A stretch of DNA of 64,000 bases from contig NC_007760.1 of the NCBI RefSeq assembly GCF_000013385.1, positions 3,942,001 to 4,006,000 on the forward strand, written 5' to 3'. The DNA is from Anaeromyxobacter dehalogenans 2CP-C. Lineage in GTDB: Bacteria; Myxococcota; Myxococcia; Myxococcales; Anaeromyxobacteraceae. The translations under genes were made by a program, and so were the position numbers. Numbering within the stretch: position 1 is the stretch's first letter; every line of letters begins with the position of its first letter. Positions 3,268-9,781 of this stretch are shown here, in pieces. The notes below the pieces were generated by a model, which was not told the DNA's origin, ran no database searches, and worked only from the letters and a program-made list of their open reading frames with translations.

Positions 3268-3322
3268 CGCGGCCTCGACCCGTCCCCGCGCGCGATGGGC
3301 CCCGCGCGCGGACCTTCGACGC

Positions 3323-3328
3323 TATATT
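3323..3328 (+). promoter_or_regulatory. -10 hexamer TATATT for the gene at 3336
   Basis: TATATT ends 7 bases before the ATG at 3336, which would place transcription start at or next to the A of the ATG (leaderless mRNA). No good -35 is seen and there is no Shine-Dalgarno. Confidence 0.5.
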
Positions 3329-3335
3329 CCCACCC

Positions 3336-3722
3336 ATGCCCGTCACCGTCGAGACCGGCTCGACCCTCACGTTCGATCGCTTCTGGCGCTGGCTCAAGCG
3401 CCACCCCAACTGCATCCTGCGCGCCGGGACCCCGGACACGTTCCTCTACGACCAGGAGGATCTGCACTGGCACCTCGAGGAGGACGAGGAGCGCGTGCCG
3501 GTGGTGCAGCTCTCCCGCGGCAAGCAGACCCTGGCCGAGATCGCCATCGAGGCGCGCGAGGTGCTGTTCGTGCAGGTGCTCCCCGACCCGGACGGCGACG
3601 CCGGGCAGTTCCTGTTCGAGCTGATCGGGGGCAGCGGCGACGAGCCGTACCCCGTCTACCACTTCGTCCTCGCGCACGGCTTCGACGAGGAGGCCGGGCA
3701 CCGCGCGCAGCTCAAGCAGTGA
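3336..3722 (+). CDS. Conserved-looking small protein of unknown function
   Basis: A 128-residue acidic, soluble-looking protein with no signal peptide or membrane segment. It has aromatic-rich ends (FDRFWRWLKRHPNCILR near the start and YPVYHFVLAHGFDEEAGH near the end) and an acidic middle. I do not recognise the family. The start is supported by the -10 element immediately upstream. The coding bias matches the neighbours, so I take it as a real gene. It stands alone, about 300 bases ahead of the PheRS-like gene. Confidence 0.7.
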   Translation: MPVTVETGSTLTFDRFWRWLKRHPNCILRAGTPDTFLYDQEDLHWHLEEDEERVPVVQLSRGKQTLAEIAIEAREVLFVQVLPDPDGDAGQFLFELIGGSGDEPYPVYHFVLAHGFDEEAGHRAQLKQ

Positions 3723-3794
3723 GCGGGCGTTGCGCCGGCGCCCCCCGGCGGATATCCTCGTGACGTGGTCCTCCTGAGCGCGATCGCGCGTCGA

Positions 3795-3896
3795 TATTGC
3801 GGCCCCTCGTCCCGGCCCGGTGCCCGGACGAGCCCGTGTGCGCGATTTAGCGGCCCTCCGTCCCGGCCCGGTGCCTGGACGGACCCGCTCGCGCGG
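3795..3896 (+). repeat. Two tandem 51-base imperfect repeats, each a hairpin, in the leader of the PheRS-like gene
   Basis: The repeats run 3795-3845 and 3846-3896. Each holds a 23-base hairpin (3808-3830 and 3859-3881) with arms CGTCC/GGACG and GGC/GCC, a one-base mismatch at the same position, and loop CCGGT. Sequence differences between copies leave the stems intact. The repeat ends 124 bases before the ATG at 4021 and could be a regulatory leader. The rest of 3723-4020 holds no other feature I can name. Confidence 0.55.
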
Positions 3897-4020
3897 TGAG
3901 CAGGGGCCGCTCCGCACCATCGAGATCGTTCGGGCCGTGGCGGGGGGAGTCGTCGCTCCACCCTTCCTTCCACGGGCGCGTCCGCCGCGCGGCGCGCCCC
4001 CGGCGCTCGAGGTCCGAACC

Positions 4021-5157
4021 ATGTCGAAGCTCCCCGTCCTCTCCCCCGGCGCGCTGAAACGCGCGCTCGCCCTCCGCGATCTCACCGACCCTGCGCAGGG
4101 TCCGCACGCCGTGCAGCTCGTGCTGCGCAAGGCGGTGGACGCGCTCTCCGCCGCCTGGCGCTGCCCGGTCGCCGTGGAGCGCGCCAGCCCGGTGGTGGCG
4201 GTCGCCGACAACTACGACCGGCTCCACTACCCGCCCGGCGGCGCGGCCCGCGACGCGCGGCACACCCGCTACGTCTCCGAGACGCACCTGCTCCGCACCC
4301 AGACCACCGCCCTGGTCCCGCCGGCGCTGCGCAGGCTCGCCGCCGCGCCGCCGCGGGACGTGCTGCTCGTCTGCCCGGGCATGGTCTACCGGCGCGACGC
4401 GATCGACCGCCTCCACACCGGCGAGCCGCACCAGGTGGACCTGTGGCGCATCCGCCGCGGCGCGCCGCTCGGCGTGCACGAGCTGGCCGAGATGATCGCC
4501 GGCGCGGTCCGGGCGGTGCTGCCCGAGCTCACGCTCTCGGTGGTGCCGTCGCCGCACCCGTACACGCGCGAGGGCCGGCAGATCGACGTCCGCGTGCGCG
4601 GCGAGTGGATCGAGATCGGCGAGTGCGGCCTGGTCGCGCCCGAGGTGCTCGCCGAGGCCGGGCTGCCCGCGGACGCGAGCGGGCTGGCCATGGGGCTCGG
4701 CCTCGACCGCCTGGTGATGCTGGCGAAGGGGCTCGACGACATCCGCCTGCTCCGCTCCGACGACCCGCGCATCGCGGCCCAGATGCAGGACCTCTCGCCG
4801 TGGCGGCCGGTGTCGCGCCACCCGCCGGTGCGCCGCGACCTCTCGGTGGCGGTGGCCGCCGACGCCGGGGCGGAGGCGCTCGGCGACCGCGTGCGCGAGG
4901 CGCTCGGGCCGCGCGCCGCCGACGTCGAGGCGATCGAGGTCCGGTCGGAGACGCCCTGGGACGCGCTGCCGGAGGCGGCGCGGGCGCGGCTGGGGATCCG
5001 CCCGGGGCAGAAGAACGTGCTGCTCCGGATCGTGCTGCGCGCGCTGGGCCGGACGCTCACCGACGACGAGGCCAACCGGCTCCGCGACGCGGTGTACGCC
5101 GCGGTGCACCAGGGCACCGAGCACGCCTGGGCCTGCGGCGCGTCCCCGACCCCTTAG
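4021..5157 (+). CDS. Single-chain phenylalanyl-tRNA synthetase-like protein (PheS catalytic core plus FDX-ACB domain)
   Basis: A class II (subclass IIc) synthetase-like protein of 378 residues. Residues about 60-255 follow the PheRS alpha core: NYDRLHYPPGGAARD (64-78), LLRTQTTA (90-97), motif 2 YRRDAIDRLHTGEPHQVDLW (123-142), EIGECGLVAPEVL (198-210), and motif 3 GLGLDRLVMLAKGLDDIRLLRSDDPR (225-250). Residues 262-370 are an FDX-ACB anticodon-binding domain (RHPPVRRDLSV start), which normally ends the beta subunit. This alpha-plus-ACB layout is that of monomeric mitochondrial PheRS. Motif 2 has HQVDLW where PheS usually has HQVEG. No pheT is adjacent. Whether it charges tRNA-Phe or has another substrate is open. 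The ATG at 4021 is preferred because upstream codons look non-coding. Confidence 0.8.
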   Translation: MSKLPVLSPGALKRALALRDLTDPAQGPHAVQLVLRKAVDALSAAWRCPVAVERASPVVAVADNYDRLHYPPGGAARDARHTRYVSETHLLRTQTTALVPPALRRLAAAPPRDVLLVCPGMVYRRDAIDRLHTGEPHQVDLWRIRRGAPLGVHELAEMIAGAVRAVLPELTLSVVPSPHPYTREGRQIDVRVRGEWIEIGECGLVAPEVLAEAGLPADASGLAMGLGLDRLVMLAKGLDDIRLLRSDDPRIAAQMQDLSPWRPVSRHPPVRRDLSVAVAADAGAEALGDRVREALGPRAADVEAIEVRSETPWDALPEAARARLGIRPGQKNVLLRIVLRALGRTLTDDEANRLRDAVYAAVHQGTEHAWACGASPTP

Positions 5158-5221
5158 CTCCCGCCCCGGCGGGGGCGCGGGGCTCCCGCGTGCGCCCCGC
5201 GCCCCGCCCCGGGGCTATCCT

Positions 5222-5236
5222 GGGACGTGACGTCCC
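5222..5236. promoter_or_regulatory. Perfect palindrome GGGACGTGACGTCCC upstream of the amidase
   Basis: Two 7-base arms around a single G, ending 16 bases before the GTG start at 5253. A TATCCT hexamer (5216-5221) directly abuts it, so it would overlie the transcription start. This is a plausible operator for a dimeric repressor. Confidence 0.45.
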
Positions 5237-5252
5237 CCGGGGAGGCCACGCG

Positions 5253-6740
5253 GTGCGACTGCCGGAGTACGACCGCCTCGACGCGCTCGGCCTGGCCGAG
5301 CTGGTCGCGCGCCGCGAGGTGACGGCGCTCGAGCTGCTGGAGGCGGCCCTGGAGCGCGCCGACCGGCGCAACCCGCCCATCAACGCCATCGTCGCCCGCT
5401 ACGACGACGAGGCGCGGGCGCGCGCGCGCGGCCCGCTCCCGGCCGGCCCGCTCTCCGGCGTGCCGTTCCTGCTGAAGGACCTGCTCGCCGCGTGGAAGGG
5501 CCACCCGTACACGTGCTCCTCGCGGCTGCTGGCCGGGTTCGTGGCGCCGGAGGACGCCGAGACGGTGCGCCGCTTCCAGGCGGCGGGGCTGGTGCTGTTC
5601 GGGCAGACCAACACGCCGGAGCTGGGCGTCATGGGCGTCACCGAGCCGGCGCTGCGCGGGCCGACCCGGAACCCGTGGAACCCGGCGTTCACCTCGGGCG
5701 GCTCCTCCGGCGGGAGCGCCGCGGCGGTGGCGGCGCGGATCGTCCCCGCCGCGCACGGGAACGACGGCGGCGGCTCGCTGCGCATCCCGGCGTCGGTGTG
5801 CGGGGTGTTCGCGCTGAAGGCGACGCGCGGGCGCGTCACGCTGGCCCCGGCGTTCGGCGAGGCGCTGGGCGGGTTCGCGATCGACGGCGTGCTGACGCGC
5901 TCGGTGCGCGACTCCGCGGCGCTGCTCGACGCCATCGACGGCCCGGCGCCGGGCGACCCGTACGCGGCGCCGCCGAAGGCCCGGCCGTTCCTCGCCGAGG
6001 TGGGCGCGCCGCCGGGGCGCCTGCGCATCGCGTTCACGCGCGAGGGCCTGTTCGCGCGCGCCACCGATCCCGAGTGCGCCGCGGCGGTGGACGCGGCGGC
6101 CCGGCTCCTCGCCGACCTCGGCCACGAGCTGGTGGAGGCGCGCCCGAAGTTCCCGCGCGACGCGCTGGCGCGCGCGTACCTGGTGACGCTCGCGGCGCAG
6201 ACCGCGGCCGACGTCGCGCTCGCCGCCCGCCACGCGGGCCGCCGCCCGCGCGCCGGGGACCTCGAGCCGGAGACGGCCGCGCTCGCCGCAGGCGGCCGCG
6301 CGCTCTCGGCGCAGGACCTGGTGCTCGCCCGCGTCGAGCTGGAGCAGGCCTCGCGCGGCGTGGCGGCGTTCTTCGAGCACCACGACGCGCTGCTCACGCC
6401 CACGCTGGCGCGGCCGCCGGTCCGCGTCGGGGCGCTCGCGGCGCGCTCGCACGAGCGGCTGGCGCTGCGGCTGGTGGCGCGGTTCGGCTCGCGCCGGCTG
6501 CTGGAGCGGCTCTTCGACGACCTGGGGAGCCGCTCGTTCGACGCCACCGGGAACACCATGCTGTTCAACCAGACCGGCCAGCCGGCGATGAGCCTGCCGC
6601 TCCACTTCAGCCGCGACGGCCTGCCCATCGGCGTGCAGGTGGTGGGGCGGTTCGGGGGCGAGGCGACGCTGTTCCGGCTCGCGGCGCAGGTGGAGCAGGC
6701 CGCGCCCTGGGCCGGCCGGGTCCCGCCGCTCAGCGCGTGA
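5253..6740 (+). CDS. Amidase-signature family hydrolase
   Basis: A 495-residue amide hydrolase. The Ser-cisSer-Lys triad is visible: K75 in PFLLKD, S151 in TSGGSSGGSAAAVA, and nucleophile S175 in GNDGGGSLRIPA. Length and motif spacing fit fatty-acid-amide or aryl-amide type amidases rather than GatA, and no gatB/C is nearby. The GTG start has GGGGAGG 8 bases upstream. The 3' end overlaps the convergent transporter gene by 11 bases. The natural substrate is unknown. Confidence 0.9.
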   Translation: MRLPEYDRLDALGLAELVARREVTALELLEAALERADRRNPPINAIVARYDDEARARARGPLPAGPLSGVPFLLKDLLAAWKGHPYTCSSRLLAGFVAPEDAETVRRFQAAGLVLFGQTNTPELGVMGVTEPALRGPTRNPWNPAFTSGGSSGGSAAAVAARIVPAAHGNDGGGSLRIPASVCGVFALKATRGRVTLAPAFGEALGGFAIDGVLTRSVRDSAALLDAIDGPAPGDPYAAPPKARPFLAEVGAPPGRLRIAFTREGLFARATDPECAAAVDAAARLLADLGHELVEARPKFPRDALARAYLVTLAAQTAADVALAARHAGRRPRAGDLEPETAALAAGGRALSAQDLVLARVELEQASRGVAAFFEHHDALLTPTLARPPVRVGALAARSHERLALRLVARFGSRRLLERLFDDLGSRSFDATGNTMLFNQTGQPAMSLPLHFSRDGLPIGVQVVGRFGGEATLFRLAAQVEQAAPWAGRVPPLSA

Positions 6741-8541
6741 ACGGCCAGACCAGCGGGACCCCCAGGGTGAGCAGCGCCACGATCGCGAGCGTGAGCGGCG
6801 TCCCCACCCGCACGAAGTCGGCGAACCGGTAGCGGCCCGCGCCGTAGACCAGCATCGAGGCCGGCTCGAGCGGCGTCACGAACGAGCAGGAGCCGGCCAG
6901 CGTCACGCCGATCGCGAACGGGCGCGGGTCCACCCCGAGCCGGTGCGCGGCGGCGATGGCGACGGGCAGCATCACCAGCGCGGCGGCCTGGTTGCTCATG
7001 GGCGCGGACAGGACGATGGTGAGCACCACCAGGGCGAGCAGCACGCCGTGCGGGCCGGCCAGCGTGCCCGCCGCGGCGAGCCGCTCGCCGACGAGGCGCC
7101 CGGCGCCGCTCTCCTCCATGGCGAGCCCGAGCGCCAGCATCGACCCGACCAGCAGCACCACGCGCCAGTCCACCCGGAGGGCCCGGCGCGCGTCCACGCA
7201 GCCGGTGAAGATCATCGCGAGCAGCCCCGCCAGCCCCGCCACCGCCATGGGCATCCGCCCCGCGGTCCCGACCCCCAGCGCCGCCAGGAAGATCGCCGCG
7301 GCGAGCAGCGCCTTCCGCCGCCGGAGCGGCTCGGCGTCCACGCCGCTCAGCACGAGGAGCAGCCCGCCGTCGGCGAGCGCGCGGACCCGCTCGCGCGAGC
7401 CGCGGAGCAGCAGCAGGTCGCCGGCCGCGATGGGGAGCGCGCCGATCGACCCGCCGCGCCGGCGCCCCGGCGCGAGGAGCTGCAGCTTGGTGAGGCGCTG
7501 CACGACGGGGCGCCGGTGGATCCCCAGCACGTCGAGGCCCAGCTGCGCGGCCAGATCCGCCTCGGCCAGCGCCTTCCCGGCCAGCCGCGAGCCGGGCGGG
7601 ACCGACGCCTCCACCACCACCGGCGCGTCCGGCGCGCCCGGCGCAGGCTCCGGCGGGGCCGCCGCGGCGCCGGTGCCGAGCGCCACCCCGGGCGCGGCGG
7701 CGGCCCCGACGATCTCCTCGCGCCGGCCCTCCACCACCACGCGATCGTCCGGCGCGAGCACCGCGCCCGGCTCGGCGGGCCGCGGCTCGCCGTCCCTCAC
7801 CACCGCGACCGGGCGCGCGCCGAGCGTCGGCGCGACCTCCGAGAGCGGCTGGCCCACGTGCGGCGAGCCCGCCGGCACCGCCACCTCGGAGAGGTACGCG
7901 CGCTCCGGCACCGCCTCCGGCTCGGCGGGCCGCTCGCCGCGCCGGAGCAGCGGCCTGGCGACGAGCACCACCAGCGCGATCCCCAGCACCGCGATGGGCA
8001 GCCCGAGCGGCGCCAGCTCGGTGACGCCGATCCGGCCGAGCCCGGAGCGCGCCATGGCGGCGCTCATCACCAGGTTCGTGGAGGTCCCGAACAGGAGCAC
8101 CGTGCCGCCCAGCATCGAGGCGTACGCCATCGGCATCAGCACCTCGCGCTTGGGCATCCCCACGCGCTCGGCGCCGCTCACCGCCACCGGCAGGAACGCC
8201 GCGGCGGTGACCGTGTTCGAGACGAAGGAGGAGAACGCCGCCACGGTCACGAGCAGCGCGACGAGGAACGGGGTCGGCCCGAACCGGCCCAGGACGGTGA
8301 GCCGCTCGCCGACCGCCTTCACCACCCCGGTGGCCGCGAGCCCCTGCGTCATGGCGAGCAGGGTGAAGATGAAGATCACGGTGTCGTCGGAGAACCCGGA
8401 GAACGCCTGCCTGGGCGTGAGCACGCCGGTCGCCGCGAGCACGCAGATCACCAGAAGCGAGGTGACCTCCACCGGGACCCACTCCGTCCAGAAGAGCACG
8501 AGCGCGAGGAGCACCGTGCCGAGGACCAGGGCCGCCGCCAC
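6730..8541 (-). CDS. SLC13/DASS-type transporter with two internal RCK_C (TrkA-C) domains
   Basis: A 603-residue inner-membrane permease. Hydrophobic segments fill about residues 1-200 and 410-603. They include the two ion-transporter re-entrant motifs SFVSNTVTAAAFLPVA and APMSNQAAALVMLPVA, which carry the SNT/SNQ hairpins of this family. Between them, about 215-400, are two cytoplasmic TrkA-C-like regulatory domains. Family members carry dicarboxylates, sulfate or other anions; the substrate here is unknown. It starts with GTG 15 bases after the small RsbRD-like gene, so the two probably form an operon. Confidence 0.88.
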   Translation of the reverse strand: MAAALVLGTVLLALVLFWTEWVPVEVTSLLVICVLAATGVLTPRQAFSGFSDDTVIFIFTLLAMTQGLAATGVVKAVGERLTVLGRFGPTPFLVALLVTVAAFSSFVSNTVTAAAFLPVAVSGAERVGMPKREVLMPMAYASMLGGTVLLFGTSTNLVMSAAMARSGLGRIGVTELAPLGLPIAVLGIALVVLVARPLLRRGERPAEPEAVPERAYLSEVAVPAGSPHVGQPLSEVAPTLGARPVAVVRDGEPRPAEPGAVLAPDDRVVVEGRREEIVGAAAAPGVALGTGAAAAPPEPAPGAPDAPVVVEASVPPGSRLAGKALAEADLAAQLGLDVLGIHRRPVVQRLTKLQLLAPGRRRGGSIGALPIAAGDLLLLRGSRERVRALADGGLLLVLSGVDAEPLRRRKALLAAAIFLAALGVGTAGRMPMAVAGLAGLLAMIFTGCVDARRALRVDWRVVLLVGSMLALGLAMEESGAGRLVGERLAAAGTLAGPHGVLLALVVLTIVLSAPMSNQAAALVMLPVAIAAAHRLGVDPRPFAIGVTLAGSCSFVTPLEPASMLVYGAGRYRFADFVRVGTPLTLAIVALLTLGVPLVWPFTR

Positions 8542-8556
8542 GCGCCGCTTCCCGCC

Positions 8557-9021
8557 TCACGCGCCCGCGGACGCGGCCGCGCCGCCGGCCGCCCGCTCGC
8601 GCACGAACCTCAGCACCACCAGCGCCACCACGTGGTCGAGCTCCACCTCCATGAGGCGGACGTCGGCGGGCGCGACGCCGTCCGGCGCGGCCACCCAGGC
8701 GTCCAGCAGGCACTCGCGCAGGAGCCCGAGCTCGGCGACGACCTCGACGAGGTCGAAGCCCTGCGCGAGCCGCTCCAGCGCGTGGTGGTGGCCGAACGCG
8801 TCGCGCTCCTCCTCCGGCGCGCCGCCGTGGTCCAGCCGGTCGGCCAGCCAGCCGAGCAGCTGCGGGACGCGATCGAGCAGCGCCGGCGCGGGCGCCCGCG
8901 CCGCGCTGGCGAGCGTCCGCACGCCCGCCTCCCAGGCGGCCAGCACCTCTTCCCCGCTCTCCCGGATCCGCTCCGCCAGCCGGCTCCCCACGCGCACACC
9001 CCCACGCGAGAGGATGTCCAC
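8557..9021 (-). CDS. Stand-alone RsbRD_N-like sensor domain protein
   Basis: A 154-residue helical protein. The segment AFGHHHALERLAQGFDLVEVVAELGLLRECLLDAW (about 79-113) resembles the RsbT co-antagonist RsbRD N-terminal domain, where a conserved H...R..GF.L.....E...LR pattern is typical. It has no STAS or kinase domain of its own. It starts with GTG and precedes the SLC13-type transporter by 15 bases, so it may sense a condition tied to that transport. The family call rests on motif memory and is moderate. Confidence 0.55.
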   Translation of the reverse strand: MDILSRGGVRVGSRLAERIRESGEEVLAAWEAGVRTLASAARAPAPALLDRVPQLLGWLADRLDHGGAPEEERDAFGHHHALERLAQGFDLVEVVAELGLLRECLLDAWVAAPDGVAPADVRLMEVELDHVVALVVLRFVRERAAGGAAASAGA

Positions 9022-9058
9022 GCGGCGGCGCCCGGGTCGCCGGGCGACGGGCGGGGGC

Positions 9059-9781
9059 TCAGCGGGCGGCGGCGGGGCCGGGCCCGAGCCCGCCGGCGAG
9101 CGCCTCCAGCGCCTCGCGCGTCCCCGGGCCCGCGAGCGCGCGCGCCGGGGCGCGCAGGAGCAGCGCCGCCGCCAGCTCCGCCGAGCCGTCCAGCCAGGCG
9201 CTCACCCCCAGGGACGGGCTCCCCTCCTCGCCGAGCAGCACCAGCCCGGCCTGCGCCCGCCAGGTCTCCACGCGGACCTCGCGCAGGCGCGACCACGGGA
9301 GCAGGGCGGCGGGGCGGCCGCGCAGGCGCAGCTCGAGCCCGTCCTCGCCGAGGCGGAAGGCGCGGGCCGGGCGGAGCGCGCCCAGGGCCAGGAACAGCAC
9401 CACCAGCGCCGCCAGCCCGGCCAGGCCGAAGCCGGCGGCGCCCGGCTGCTCGCGCACCGCGCGCACGGCGACCGCGCCGAGCGCGGGCGCGAGCAGGAGC
9501 GGGAACGCGAGCCGGCGGGCCAGCCCGGCGCGCAGGATGGCGGCGCCGGACGCGTCGCGCGGCGCCCGGGCTCGGGGTGGCCGGCGCACCGCCACCATGA
9601 GCAGCGCGAACCAGCCGAGGAGCGCCGCGGCCTGCGCGGCGAGGGCGACGTCGGGGCGTCCCGTGCCGCGCCCCCACAGCACCACCGCGCCGATCGCGAG
9701 CGCGACGGCGGCCACGGACAGGGCGACGCGGCGGTTCTCCTTCCAGGGGGGCCAGGCGGCGCGGCGGCGGCGGGCGAGCAT
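9059..9781 (-). CDS. Membrane protein with PH-like C-terminal domain, function unknown
   Basis: 240 residues. Four hydrophobic stretches (about 22-40, 46-64, 92-108 and 116-135) are followed by a soluble part with FRLGEDGLELRLRGRPAALLPWSRLREVRVE, a pattern typical of bacterial PH-like domains. The ATG at 9781 is chosen because TAGACT (9790-9795) lies 8 bases upstream; the longer open frame crosses that promoter. It ends 37 bases upstream of the RsbRD-like gene and may be co-transcribed with it. Confidence 0.65.
   Translation of the reverse strand: MLARRRRAAWPPWKENRRVALSVAAVALAIGAVVLWGRGTGRPDVALAAQAAALLGWFALLMVAVRRPPRARAPRDASGAAILRAGLARRLAFPLLLAPALGAVAVRAVREQPGAAGFGLAGLAALVVLFLALGALRPARAFRLGEDGLELRLRGRPAALLPWSRLREVRVETWRAQAGLVLLGEEGSPSLGVSAWLDGSAELAAALLLRAPARALAGPGTREALEALAGGLGPGPAAAR

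Follow-up and report, generated by a model that had tools for sequence, protein, structure and literature searches.

In mitochondria, phenylalanyl-tRNA synthetase (PheRS) of the FARS2 type combines a catalytic core and an FDX-ACB domain in a single chain. In E. coli, the bacterial PheRS (PheST) is controlled by the pheM leader, a Phe-codon attenuator. Second-copy resistant synthetases are also known, such as the MupA-type IleRS and the indolmycin-resistant TrpRS. NCBIfam has a named family without an assigned function, the 'PheS-related mystery ligase SrmL' (NF051887), whose description contains neither the avoidance of phenylalanine (F) nor the Phe leader reported here. According to the available parts of PMC3468366 and PMC4209129, some biosynthetic enzymes are low in the residue that they supply, a phenomenon called 'cognate bias'. 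In this study, a srmL locus of Anaeromyxobacter dehalogenans 2CP-C is compared with these systems. The window is the whole stretch of DNA analysed, 64,000 nucleotides in length (contig NC_007760.1, positions 3,942,001 to 4,006,000), and the parts of its srmL gene are as follows.

4021..5157, + strand: srmL, single-chain PheRS-like protein of 378 residues with 0 phenylalanine (ORF from ATG to TAG)
4189..4782, + strand: class II PheRS catalytic core, residues 57-254 (Pfam PF01409, 123 bits)
4390..4446, + strand: motif 2 region, R124-W142 (R124, R125, H132, D140, and W142 identical in 89/89 SrmL)
4555..4563, + strand: H179-P-Y181, where bacterial PheRS has the FPF loop of its Phe pocket (89/89 SrmL share H179 and Y181)
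4813..5112, + strand: FDX-ACB tRNA-binding domain, residues 265-364 (Pfam PF03147, 33.8 bits, cut-off 31.1)

The protein scored 529.7 bits against the NF051887 profile (cut-off 300), which makes it a member of the SrmL family and rules out a chance match. The initial annotation, made from the letters alone, had described a 378-residue plus-strand ORF that joins a PheRS core and an FDX-ACB domain in one protein and has HQVDLW in motif 2. This description was borne out: the ORF is real, both Pfam domains were matched, and the protein reads EPHQVDLW. The core has the motif 2 and motif 3 residues, and the FDX-ACB domain lies at the C-terminus of the same chain, as in a single-chain PheRS. The annotation had also proposed searching the genome for pheS and pheT, since srmL might have been the only PheRS gene. 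Both an ordinary pheS (339 bits) and an ordinary pheT (755 bits) were found elsewhere in the genome, and srmL is therefore an extra gene. The window protein stays under the curated cut-offs of both TIGR00469 pheS_mito (128.6 bits, cut-off 258.35) and TIGR00468 bacterial PheS (117.8 bits, cut-off 237.45).

The AlphaFold2 model of SrmL, built with a 54-sequence alignment, has a mean pLDDT of 95.6. When solved structures were compared with VIA-align, the best matches were human mitochondrial PheRS structures (Z 36.2, 342 residues aligned, 2.6 A), and this match is full-length, running through residue 369 of SrmL. Bacterial PheRS alpha subunits were aligned with the core only (Z up to 26.5), and pyrrolysyl-tRNA synthetases gave a Z of about 20. 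SrmL thus resembles the FARS2-type enzymes in layout and in full-length structure, but it differs from them in having HPY instead of FPF, in lacking phenylalanine, in being an extra enzyme beside PheST, and in scoring under the TIGR00469 cut-off.

The absence of phenylalanine in the protein was missed in the initial annotation, as was the upstream leader ORF at 3765-3899. The window SrmL is a protein without PHENYLALANINE, having 0 F in 378 residues; PheS of the same genome has 17 F in its 373-residue frame. At the 15 aligned F positions of the genome's own PheS core, the window SrmL has F in 0/15, and the most conserved replacements are Y65, P136, H179, Y181, L222, and R245. The relatives analysed here were the best 80 of 424, so that the sample leans to the kin of the window, while the class and phylum genome samples mentioned below are separate. 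Among 89 SrmL cores, there are only 16 F in 32,004 residues (0.05%), six of which sit in one phage copy, and 78 of the cores are F-free. No F occurs in the 7,511 residues of 21 further distinct SrmL proteins, which come from 72 loci. Altogether, 99 of 110 distinct cores lack F and the remaining 11 contain it. For comparison, 329 flanking ORFs have a median of 3.19% F, one of them being without F. All other amino acids are present in all 89 cores, except that C is missing from one core.

Evolution was then simulated along the inferred SrmL tree (a quick tree) from an F-free root, the window protein, with 20 runs per model. The simulations yielded 372-703 F under LG and 329-606 F under a 3.2% F model, against the 16 observed, and at most three F-free proteins of 89, against the 78 observed. 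In the AT-rich phages L042, L124, and L126, the flanking proteins have 4.4-5.1% F and the SrmL proteins have 0 F. These results indicate that strong selection against phenylalanine acts on SrmL. The phage copy with six Phe is L125, on a 517 kb phage contig (srmL at 8007-9161), near which neither tRNA genes nor a leader were seen; the constraint may have been lost there.

The bacterial FPF loop is absent from SrmL, and the residues that take its place belong to a set that is invariant in 89/89 sequences (R124, R125, H132, D140, W142, H179, Y181, T182, E198, E201, G203, A223, G225, G227, and R230). The initial annotation had suggested an altered amino acid, and an altered pocket was at first considered here as a sign of a new substrate. 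One could imagine that SrmL loads a surrogate amino acid on tRNA(Phe) in phenylalanine starvation, Phe codons then being read by deliberate substitution. H179, Y181, E201, D140, and W142 give a more polar pocket, no editing domain was found in the window SrmL by Pfam, and the leader described below would respond to starvation too. E201, D140, and W142 are invariant, unlike in PheS, and are not accounted for by the removal of F. However, the idea was set back once SrmL proved F-free, because the changes from FPF to HPY and from AFG to AMG are those forced by selection against phenylalanine, and the other pocket positions are retained (T182, A223, and G225 in 89/89; Q138 in 88/89). According to the available text of PMC12447630, human cytosolic PheRS, which loads Phe, has Asn410 and Tyr412 at the FPF positions (N-P-Y), with Tyr412 anchoring the Phe ring. 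Thus, a non-FPF pocket can hold Phe, and the loading of a surrogate amino acid is unlikely.

Upstream of srmL lies a short leader ORF, whose parts in the window are as follows.

3765..3899, + strand: leader ORF of 44 codons and a stop codon, VVLLSAIARRYCGPSSRPGARTSPCARFSGPPSRPGAWTDPLAR, with a probable GTG start and the tandem units RRY-CGP and ARF-SGP
3792..3797, + strand: degenerate copy of the leader motif with CGA TAT (Arg-Tyr), the first of the two units, read from the sequence
3843..3848, + strand: leader core CGA TTT (Arg-Phe), with the proposed control codon TTT (Phe) at 3846-3848
3852..3866, + strand: segment 1, directly 3′ of the Phe codon and complementary to segment 4 (computed on the near-identical strain L043)
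3934..3948, + strand: segment 4, GCCGTGGCGGGGGGA, which pairs with segment 1 (computed on L043; the letters in the window are identical)
3942..3963, + strand: terminator-like hairpin (-11.6 kcal/mol) and then TTCCTTCC; weak, with no true U-run

The Anaeromyxobacter leader is a tandem duplication, in which unit 1 has Arg-Tyr (CGA TAT) and unit 2 has Arg-Phe (CGA TTT). The 16-mer CGATTTAGCGGCCCTC at the leader core occurs only once in the A. dehalogenans genome. A short ORF of the form M-x(n)-R-F-x-x-P was found upstream of srmL in Myxococcota, Actinomycetota, Gammaproteobacteria, one cyanobacterium, and one melainabacterium. CGATTT is present within 400 nt upstream of srmL in 72 of 88 loci, and on the opposite strand in 7 of 88. 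It lies in an in-frame short ORF in 71 loci; one of the 72 is a chance match in a phage, and one further locus has CGATTC. The R-F leader is thus present in 72 of the 82 non-phage srmL loci with enough upstream sequence and absent from the other 10. In these counts, L108 was dropped because of too little upstream sequence, the six phage copies were left out of the 82, the leader anchors of L116 and L118 were moved by hand to a nearer motif, and L096 was added by hand. In the 72 srmL genes, 225 of the 2,913 Arg codons are CGA, and Phe codons number 12 in total; CGA and TTT are rare codon choices in these GC-rich genomes. In all the leaders, the CGA before TTT is as invariant as TTT itself.

Segment 1 is C-rich and follows immediately after TTT, while segment 4 ends mostly 33-60 nt before srmL. 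The complementarity between them was assessed with one locus per genus name (47 of the 72): the locus's own pair gave -25.3 kcal/mol and swapped pairs -20.2 kcal/mol (z -12.3, 0/5000 permutations). A local hairpin between segments 1 and 2 was also detected (z -7.6). The controls, segment 1 against the srmL coding sequence (z +0.9) and the 5′ part of the leader against the downstream sequence (z -1.2), were negative, and segment 2 showed no specific covariation with the downstream sequence (z -0.8). RNAalifold found no consensus structure in the leader alignment. In AT-richer genomes (Natronospirillum, Marinagarivorans, Azotobacter, Leptolyngbya, and Melainabacteria), there is a clear terminator, complete with U-run, and segment 4 forms its 3′ arm. 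In the terminators of GC-rich leaders, a good U-run is absent. A hairpin with a T-rich stretch was found in 40 of 72 leaders against 7 of 72 coding controls, the U-run being clear in some loci only and the window case being weak. In constrained folding, a ribosome stall was favoured over a stop in 34 of 41 leaders, an outcome to which the overlap of the stop mask with segment 3 contributes.

The leader resembles attenuators of the trp/phe type, with a putative wiring in which a ribosome stalled at the TTT codon covers segment 1. In Anaeromyxobacter, segment 4 also begins the terminator-like hairpin, so that the opposite regulatory sign would be compatible with the computation. As in E. coli pheM, a Phe-codon leader peptide precedes a PheRS gene, and several srmL loci have a clear terminator. 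Unlike pheM and PheST, srmL encodes a single chain, and its leader has mostly one TTT instead of a run, a new sequence, and no Rfam match in the loci searched. The best Rfam match in the window at 3300-5400 was mir-9209 (21.1 of 90 bits), and no leader family was found in L061, L104, and L044. A leader scan by a Phe-run rule detected phage leaders only and missed the bacterial ones.

Is the leader confined to srmL? The leader motif CGATTTANCNGCCCYC was found in 41 of 195 Myxococcota genomes, once in each, and the reversed-pattern control gave 0. In 36 of the 41 genomes, srmL is present and the motif lies just upstream of it. Three Anaeromyxobacter genomes without srmL have the same leader (RFSSPPPRPGRWVGSYA-stop and alike) ahead of a chorismate mutase-DAHP synthase fusion gene.

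L153, L154, and L156 (Anaeromyxobacter genomes G034, G035, and G038): leader before chorismate mutase-DAHP synthase

These leaders share 115-150 bp at 78% identity with srmL leaders, while the surroundings differ. The chorismate mutase-DAHP synthase is an entry enzyme of Phe, Tyr, and Trp synthesis, and the leader may be a portable PHENYLALANINE sensor. The motif matches in the Myxococcota genomes G003 and G125 look accidental. An actinomycete pattern scan gave matches in 10 of 388 genomes, five of which are srmL genomes; the five matches outside srmL genomes look accidental.

The sharing of a leader by srmL and the DAHP synthase gene might mean that srmL is an ordinary Phe-metabolism gene under Phe attenuation, its low Phe content being an extreme cognate bias for mild starvation, of the kind described for biosynthetic enzymes (PMC3468366 and PMC4209129, in their available parts). 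The logic is the same, a protein low in the residue that it supplies, but the present proteins are synthetases and the loss is near-complete. The near-total absence of F over 110 proteins far exceeds a bias, and a count by eye gave ten F among the 421 residues of the DAHP synthase under the same leader. Moreover, a PheRS is useless when Phe itself is missing. An adaptation to mild starvation is therefore very unlikely.

In the genome samples, srmL was found in 43 of 195 Myxococcota genomes, 26 of 394 genomes of the actinomycete class sample, 3 of 369 of the gammaproteobacterial class sample, and 1 of 377 of the cyanobacterial phylum sample, this one being the genome on which the sample was centred. 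Among the relatives listed, a protein of Anaeromyxobacter sp. PSR-1 is 97% identical to the window SrmL. A PheS over the cut-off is also present in 43/43 SrmL genomes searched (of 44 chosen), and srmL is always an extra gene there. A Microtetraspora genome has, besides PheS and SrmL, a third PheS-like match below the cut-off (G210:C4:307028-307729, 195 bits). On the Glutamicibacter plasmid pGnB68 (L040), srmL adjoins a Cmx/CmrA (chloramphenicol) efflux gene, and on a Corynebacterium diphtheriae plasmid (L041), a 5′-truncated srmL lies between erm(X) and tet(65). Like the second-copy resistant synthetases, srmL encodes a divergent extra synthetase and is mobile, some copies being on resistance plasmids. 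Unlike the MupA-type and indolmycin-resistant enzymes, SrmL has been cleared of the amino acid that it would load, and its gene stands behind a leader for that amino acid; a role in resistance is conjectural.

No conserved gene neighbourhood or partner gene was found in bacteria among the 89 loci; the two largest neighbour clusters are antisense shadows of srmL itself. This bears on the tRNA-independent role that had been considered for the protein. The NCBIfam name 'mystery ligase' and the copies near resistance genes on two plasmids would suit a tRNA-independent ligase derived from PheRS, for example an amide or antibiotic-modifying enzyme. However, the retained FDX-ACB domain, the tRNA-Phe neighbours and the synthetase cassette seen in phages, and the lack of a conserved partner gene in bacteria speak against it. 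It is highly improbable that SrmL is such a ligase.

Six SrmL proteins are on virus or phage records. No other pheS over the cut-off was found on the SrmL phage records (eight records searched, two of them plasmids). In L037, tRNA-Phe (GAA) genes lie on both sides of srmL, and in L038, one lies ahead of it. In L124 (508 kb), srmL begins 9 nt downstream of a HisRS-like gene (hisS), and the cassette that holds them also contains LysRS, TrpRS, SerRS, and GlyRS-like genes as well as tRNA genes, among them neighbouring tRNA-His and tRNA-Phe genes. The HisRS-SrmL pair has the leader MKTLNINTHFHFHFENLELGVH, in which His and Phe alternate (HFHFHF), and then a terminator. In LR745206 (635 kb), srmL is preceded by the leader MNTNTTFNFFFSHKMV and by a terminator with which an upstream segment competes, and L126 has a Phe-rich short ORF and a terminator. 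SrmL occupies the Phe slot beside other, ordinary synthetases in the phage cassette, which argues further against a surrogate amino acid.

Taken together, srmL encodes a putative emergency single-chain phenylalanyl-tRNA synthetase, a reading to which I assign a probability of roughly 0.8. SrmL has a mitochondrial-type PheRS architecture and conserved catalytic residues and is under selection against Phe, and the gene has a leader ORF with a Phe codon, covarying segments, and a Phe-specific phage context. Among the three options of the initial annotation, a backup synthetase is the one that is supported, given the F-free protein, the Phe codon in the leader, and the relatives beside tRNA-Phe or in the HisRS-SrmL operon; the altered amino acid and the tRNA-independent role are not supported. 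When Phe-tRNA(Phe) runs short, the ribosome would stall on the leader TTT and cover segment 1, and RNA polymerase (or translation) would then proceed into srmL. Since no phenylalanine is required for SrmL, its synthesis could be completed in the absence of Phe-tRNA. The enzyme would then charge tRNA(Phe) with phenylalanine, and translation would restart. Since a PheRS is of no use without Phe, the trigger is probably the inhibition or loss of the ordinary PheST with Phe still present. The mobile srmL copies near antibiotic-resistance genes agree with such a trigger but do not prove it.

Are other phage synthetases depleted of their own amino acids? According to the available text of PMC7162821, a huge-phage genome can encode as many as 15 synthetases; its main text nowhere uses the words 'cognate', 'devoid', or 'amino acid composition'. 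I scanned 223 phage ORFs for depleted residues in an unbiased way (4,460 tests) and confirmed synthetases by NCBIfam. Many of the strongest matches are synthetases without their own amino acid, the other top matches being long structural or repeat proteins. Two near-complete sets were found.

L206-L209 (phage G197) and L220-L225 (LR745206): near-complete phage synthetase sets

In G197, the observed/expected numbers of the cognate residue are 0/30.1 D for AspRS, 0/9.6 P for ProRS, 1/12.6 Q for GlnRS, 0/29.1 V for ValRS, 1/39.8 K for LysRS, 0/2.6 W for TrpRS, 12/29.4 S for SerRS, 0/4.2 H for HisRS, 0/17.0 F for SrmL, 1/14.7 G for GlyRS, 0/9.8 A for an AlaRS-like protein, and 0/17.4 Y for TyrRS. 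In LR745206, they are 0/36.1 D for AspRS, 0/3.5 H for a HisRS-like protein, 0/14.8 F for SrmL, 0/65.9 I for IleRS, 0/27.9 N for AsnRS, 6/32.5 E for GluRS, 18/33.6 L for LeuRS, 1/15.1 G for GlyRS, 0/8.0 A for an AlaRS-like protein, 1/12.6 Q for GlnRS, and 0/13.6 R for an ArgRS-like protein assigned by a weak Pfam match only (26.4 bits). By ratio, the cognate is the most depleted of the 20 residues in 23/23 synthetases of the two phages; by binomial p, it comes first in 13/15 (TrpRS at rank 4 and W01 HisRS at rank 2) and in 8/8. Given that the two phages are relatives, as are the W01 srmL copies and pieces of both, the 23 synthetases are not 23 independent cases. SerRS of phage G195 has an ordinary composition (24 S in 506).

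Leaders were called when a terminator accompanied a short ATG-initiated ORF in which one residue fills three of six positions. By this rule, they were found for 5 of the 22 synthetase genes scanned and 0 of 118 other ORFs. They precede IleRS (IIII), ValRS (VVVV), HisRS-SrmL (HFHFHF), AsnRS-ArgRS (NNRNR), and AspRS, the last being detected by T while also having DD. For seven G197 genes (ProRS, GlnRS, TrpRS, SerRS, GlyRS, AlaRS, and TyrRS), no cognate-rich leader with a terminator was found. The open-licence literature, to which the search was confined with subscription papers outside its scope, gave no account of SrmL function or of synthetases without their own amino acid. It is likely that a general class of 'self-independent' synthetases exists, of which SrmL is the first to be recognised, each purged of the amino acid that it loads and set behind a cognate-codon leader, so that charging could start again from nothing. 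Near-complete sets of them would be present in two related huge phages, and in bacteria the PheRS member would persist as a mobile gene for emergencies or resistance.

The synthesis of a synthetase depends on that enzyme's own product, and therefore a cell without any Phe-tRNA(Phe) has no means of rebuilding PheRS. SrmL seems to offer a way out of this circle, as a PheRS that needs no phenylalanine and is switched on by the lack of it. With this reading, a family carried by NCBI as a mystery acquires a function that can be tested, and a reason is suggested for the synthetases of huge phages, namely that translation may continue after the collapse of host charging. Naturally cognate-free synthetases may also be material for protein engineering and for the study of how a fold tolerates the loss of an amino acid, as in an IleRS without Ile or a GlyRS with one Gly. 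For the bacteria, a further prediction is that PheRS inhibitors of natural origin, or stresses that target PheRS, occur often enough for srmL to be maintained in myxobacteria and actinomycetes.
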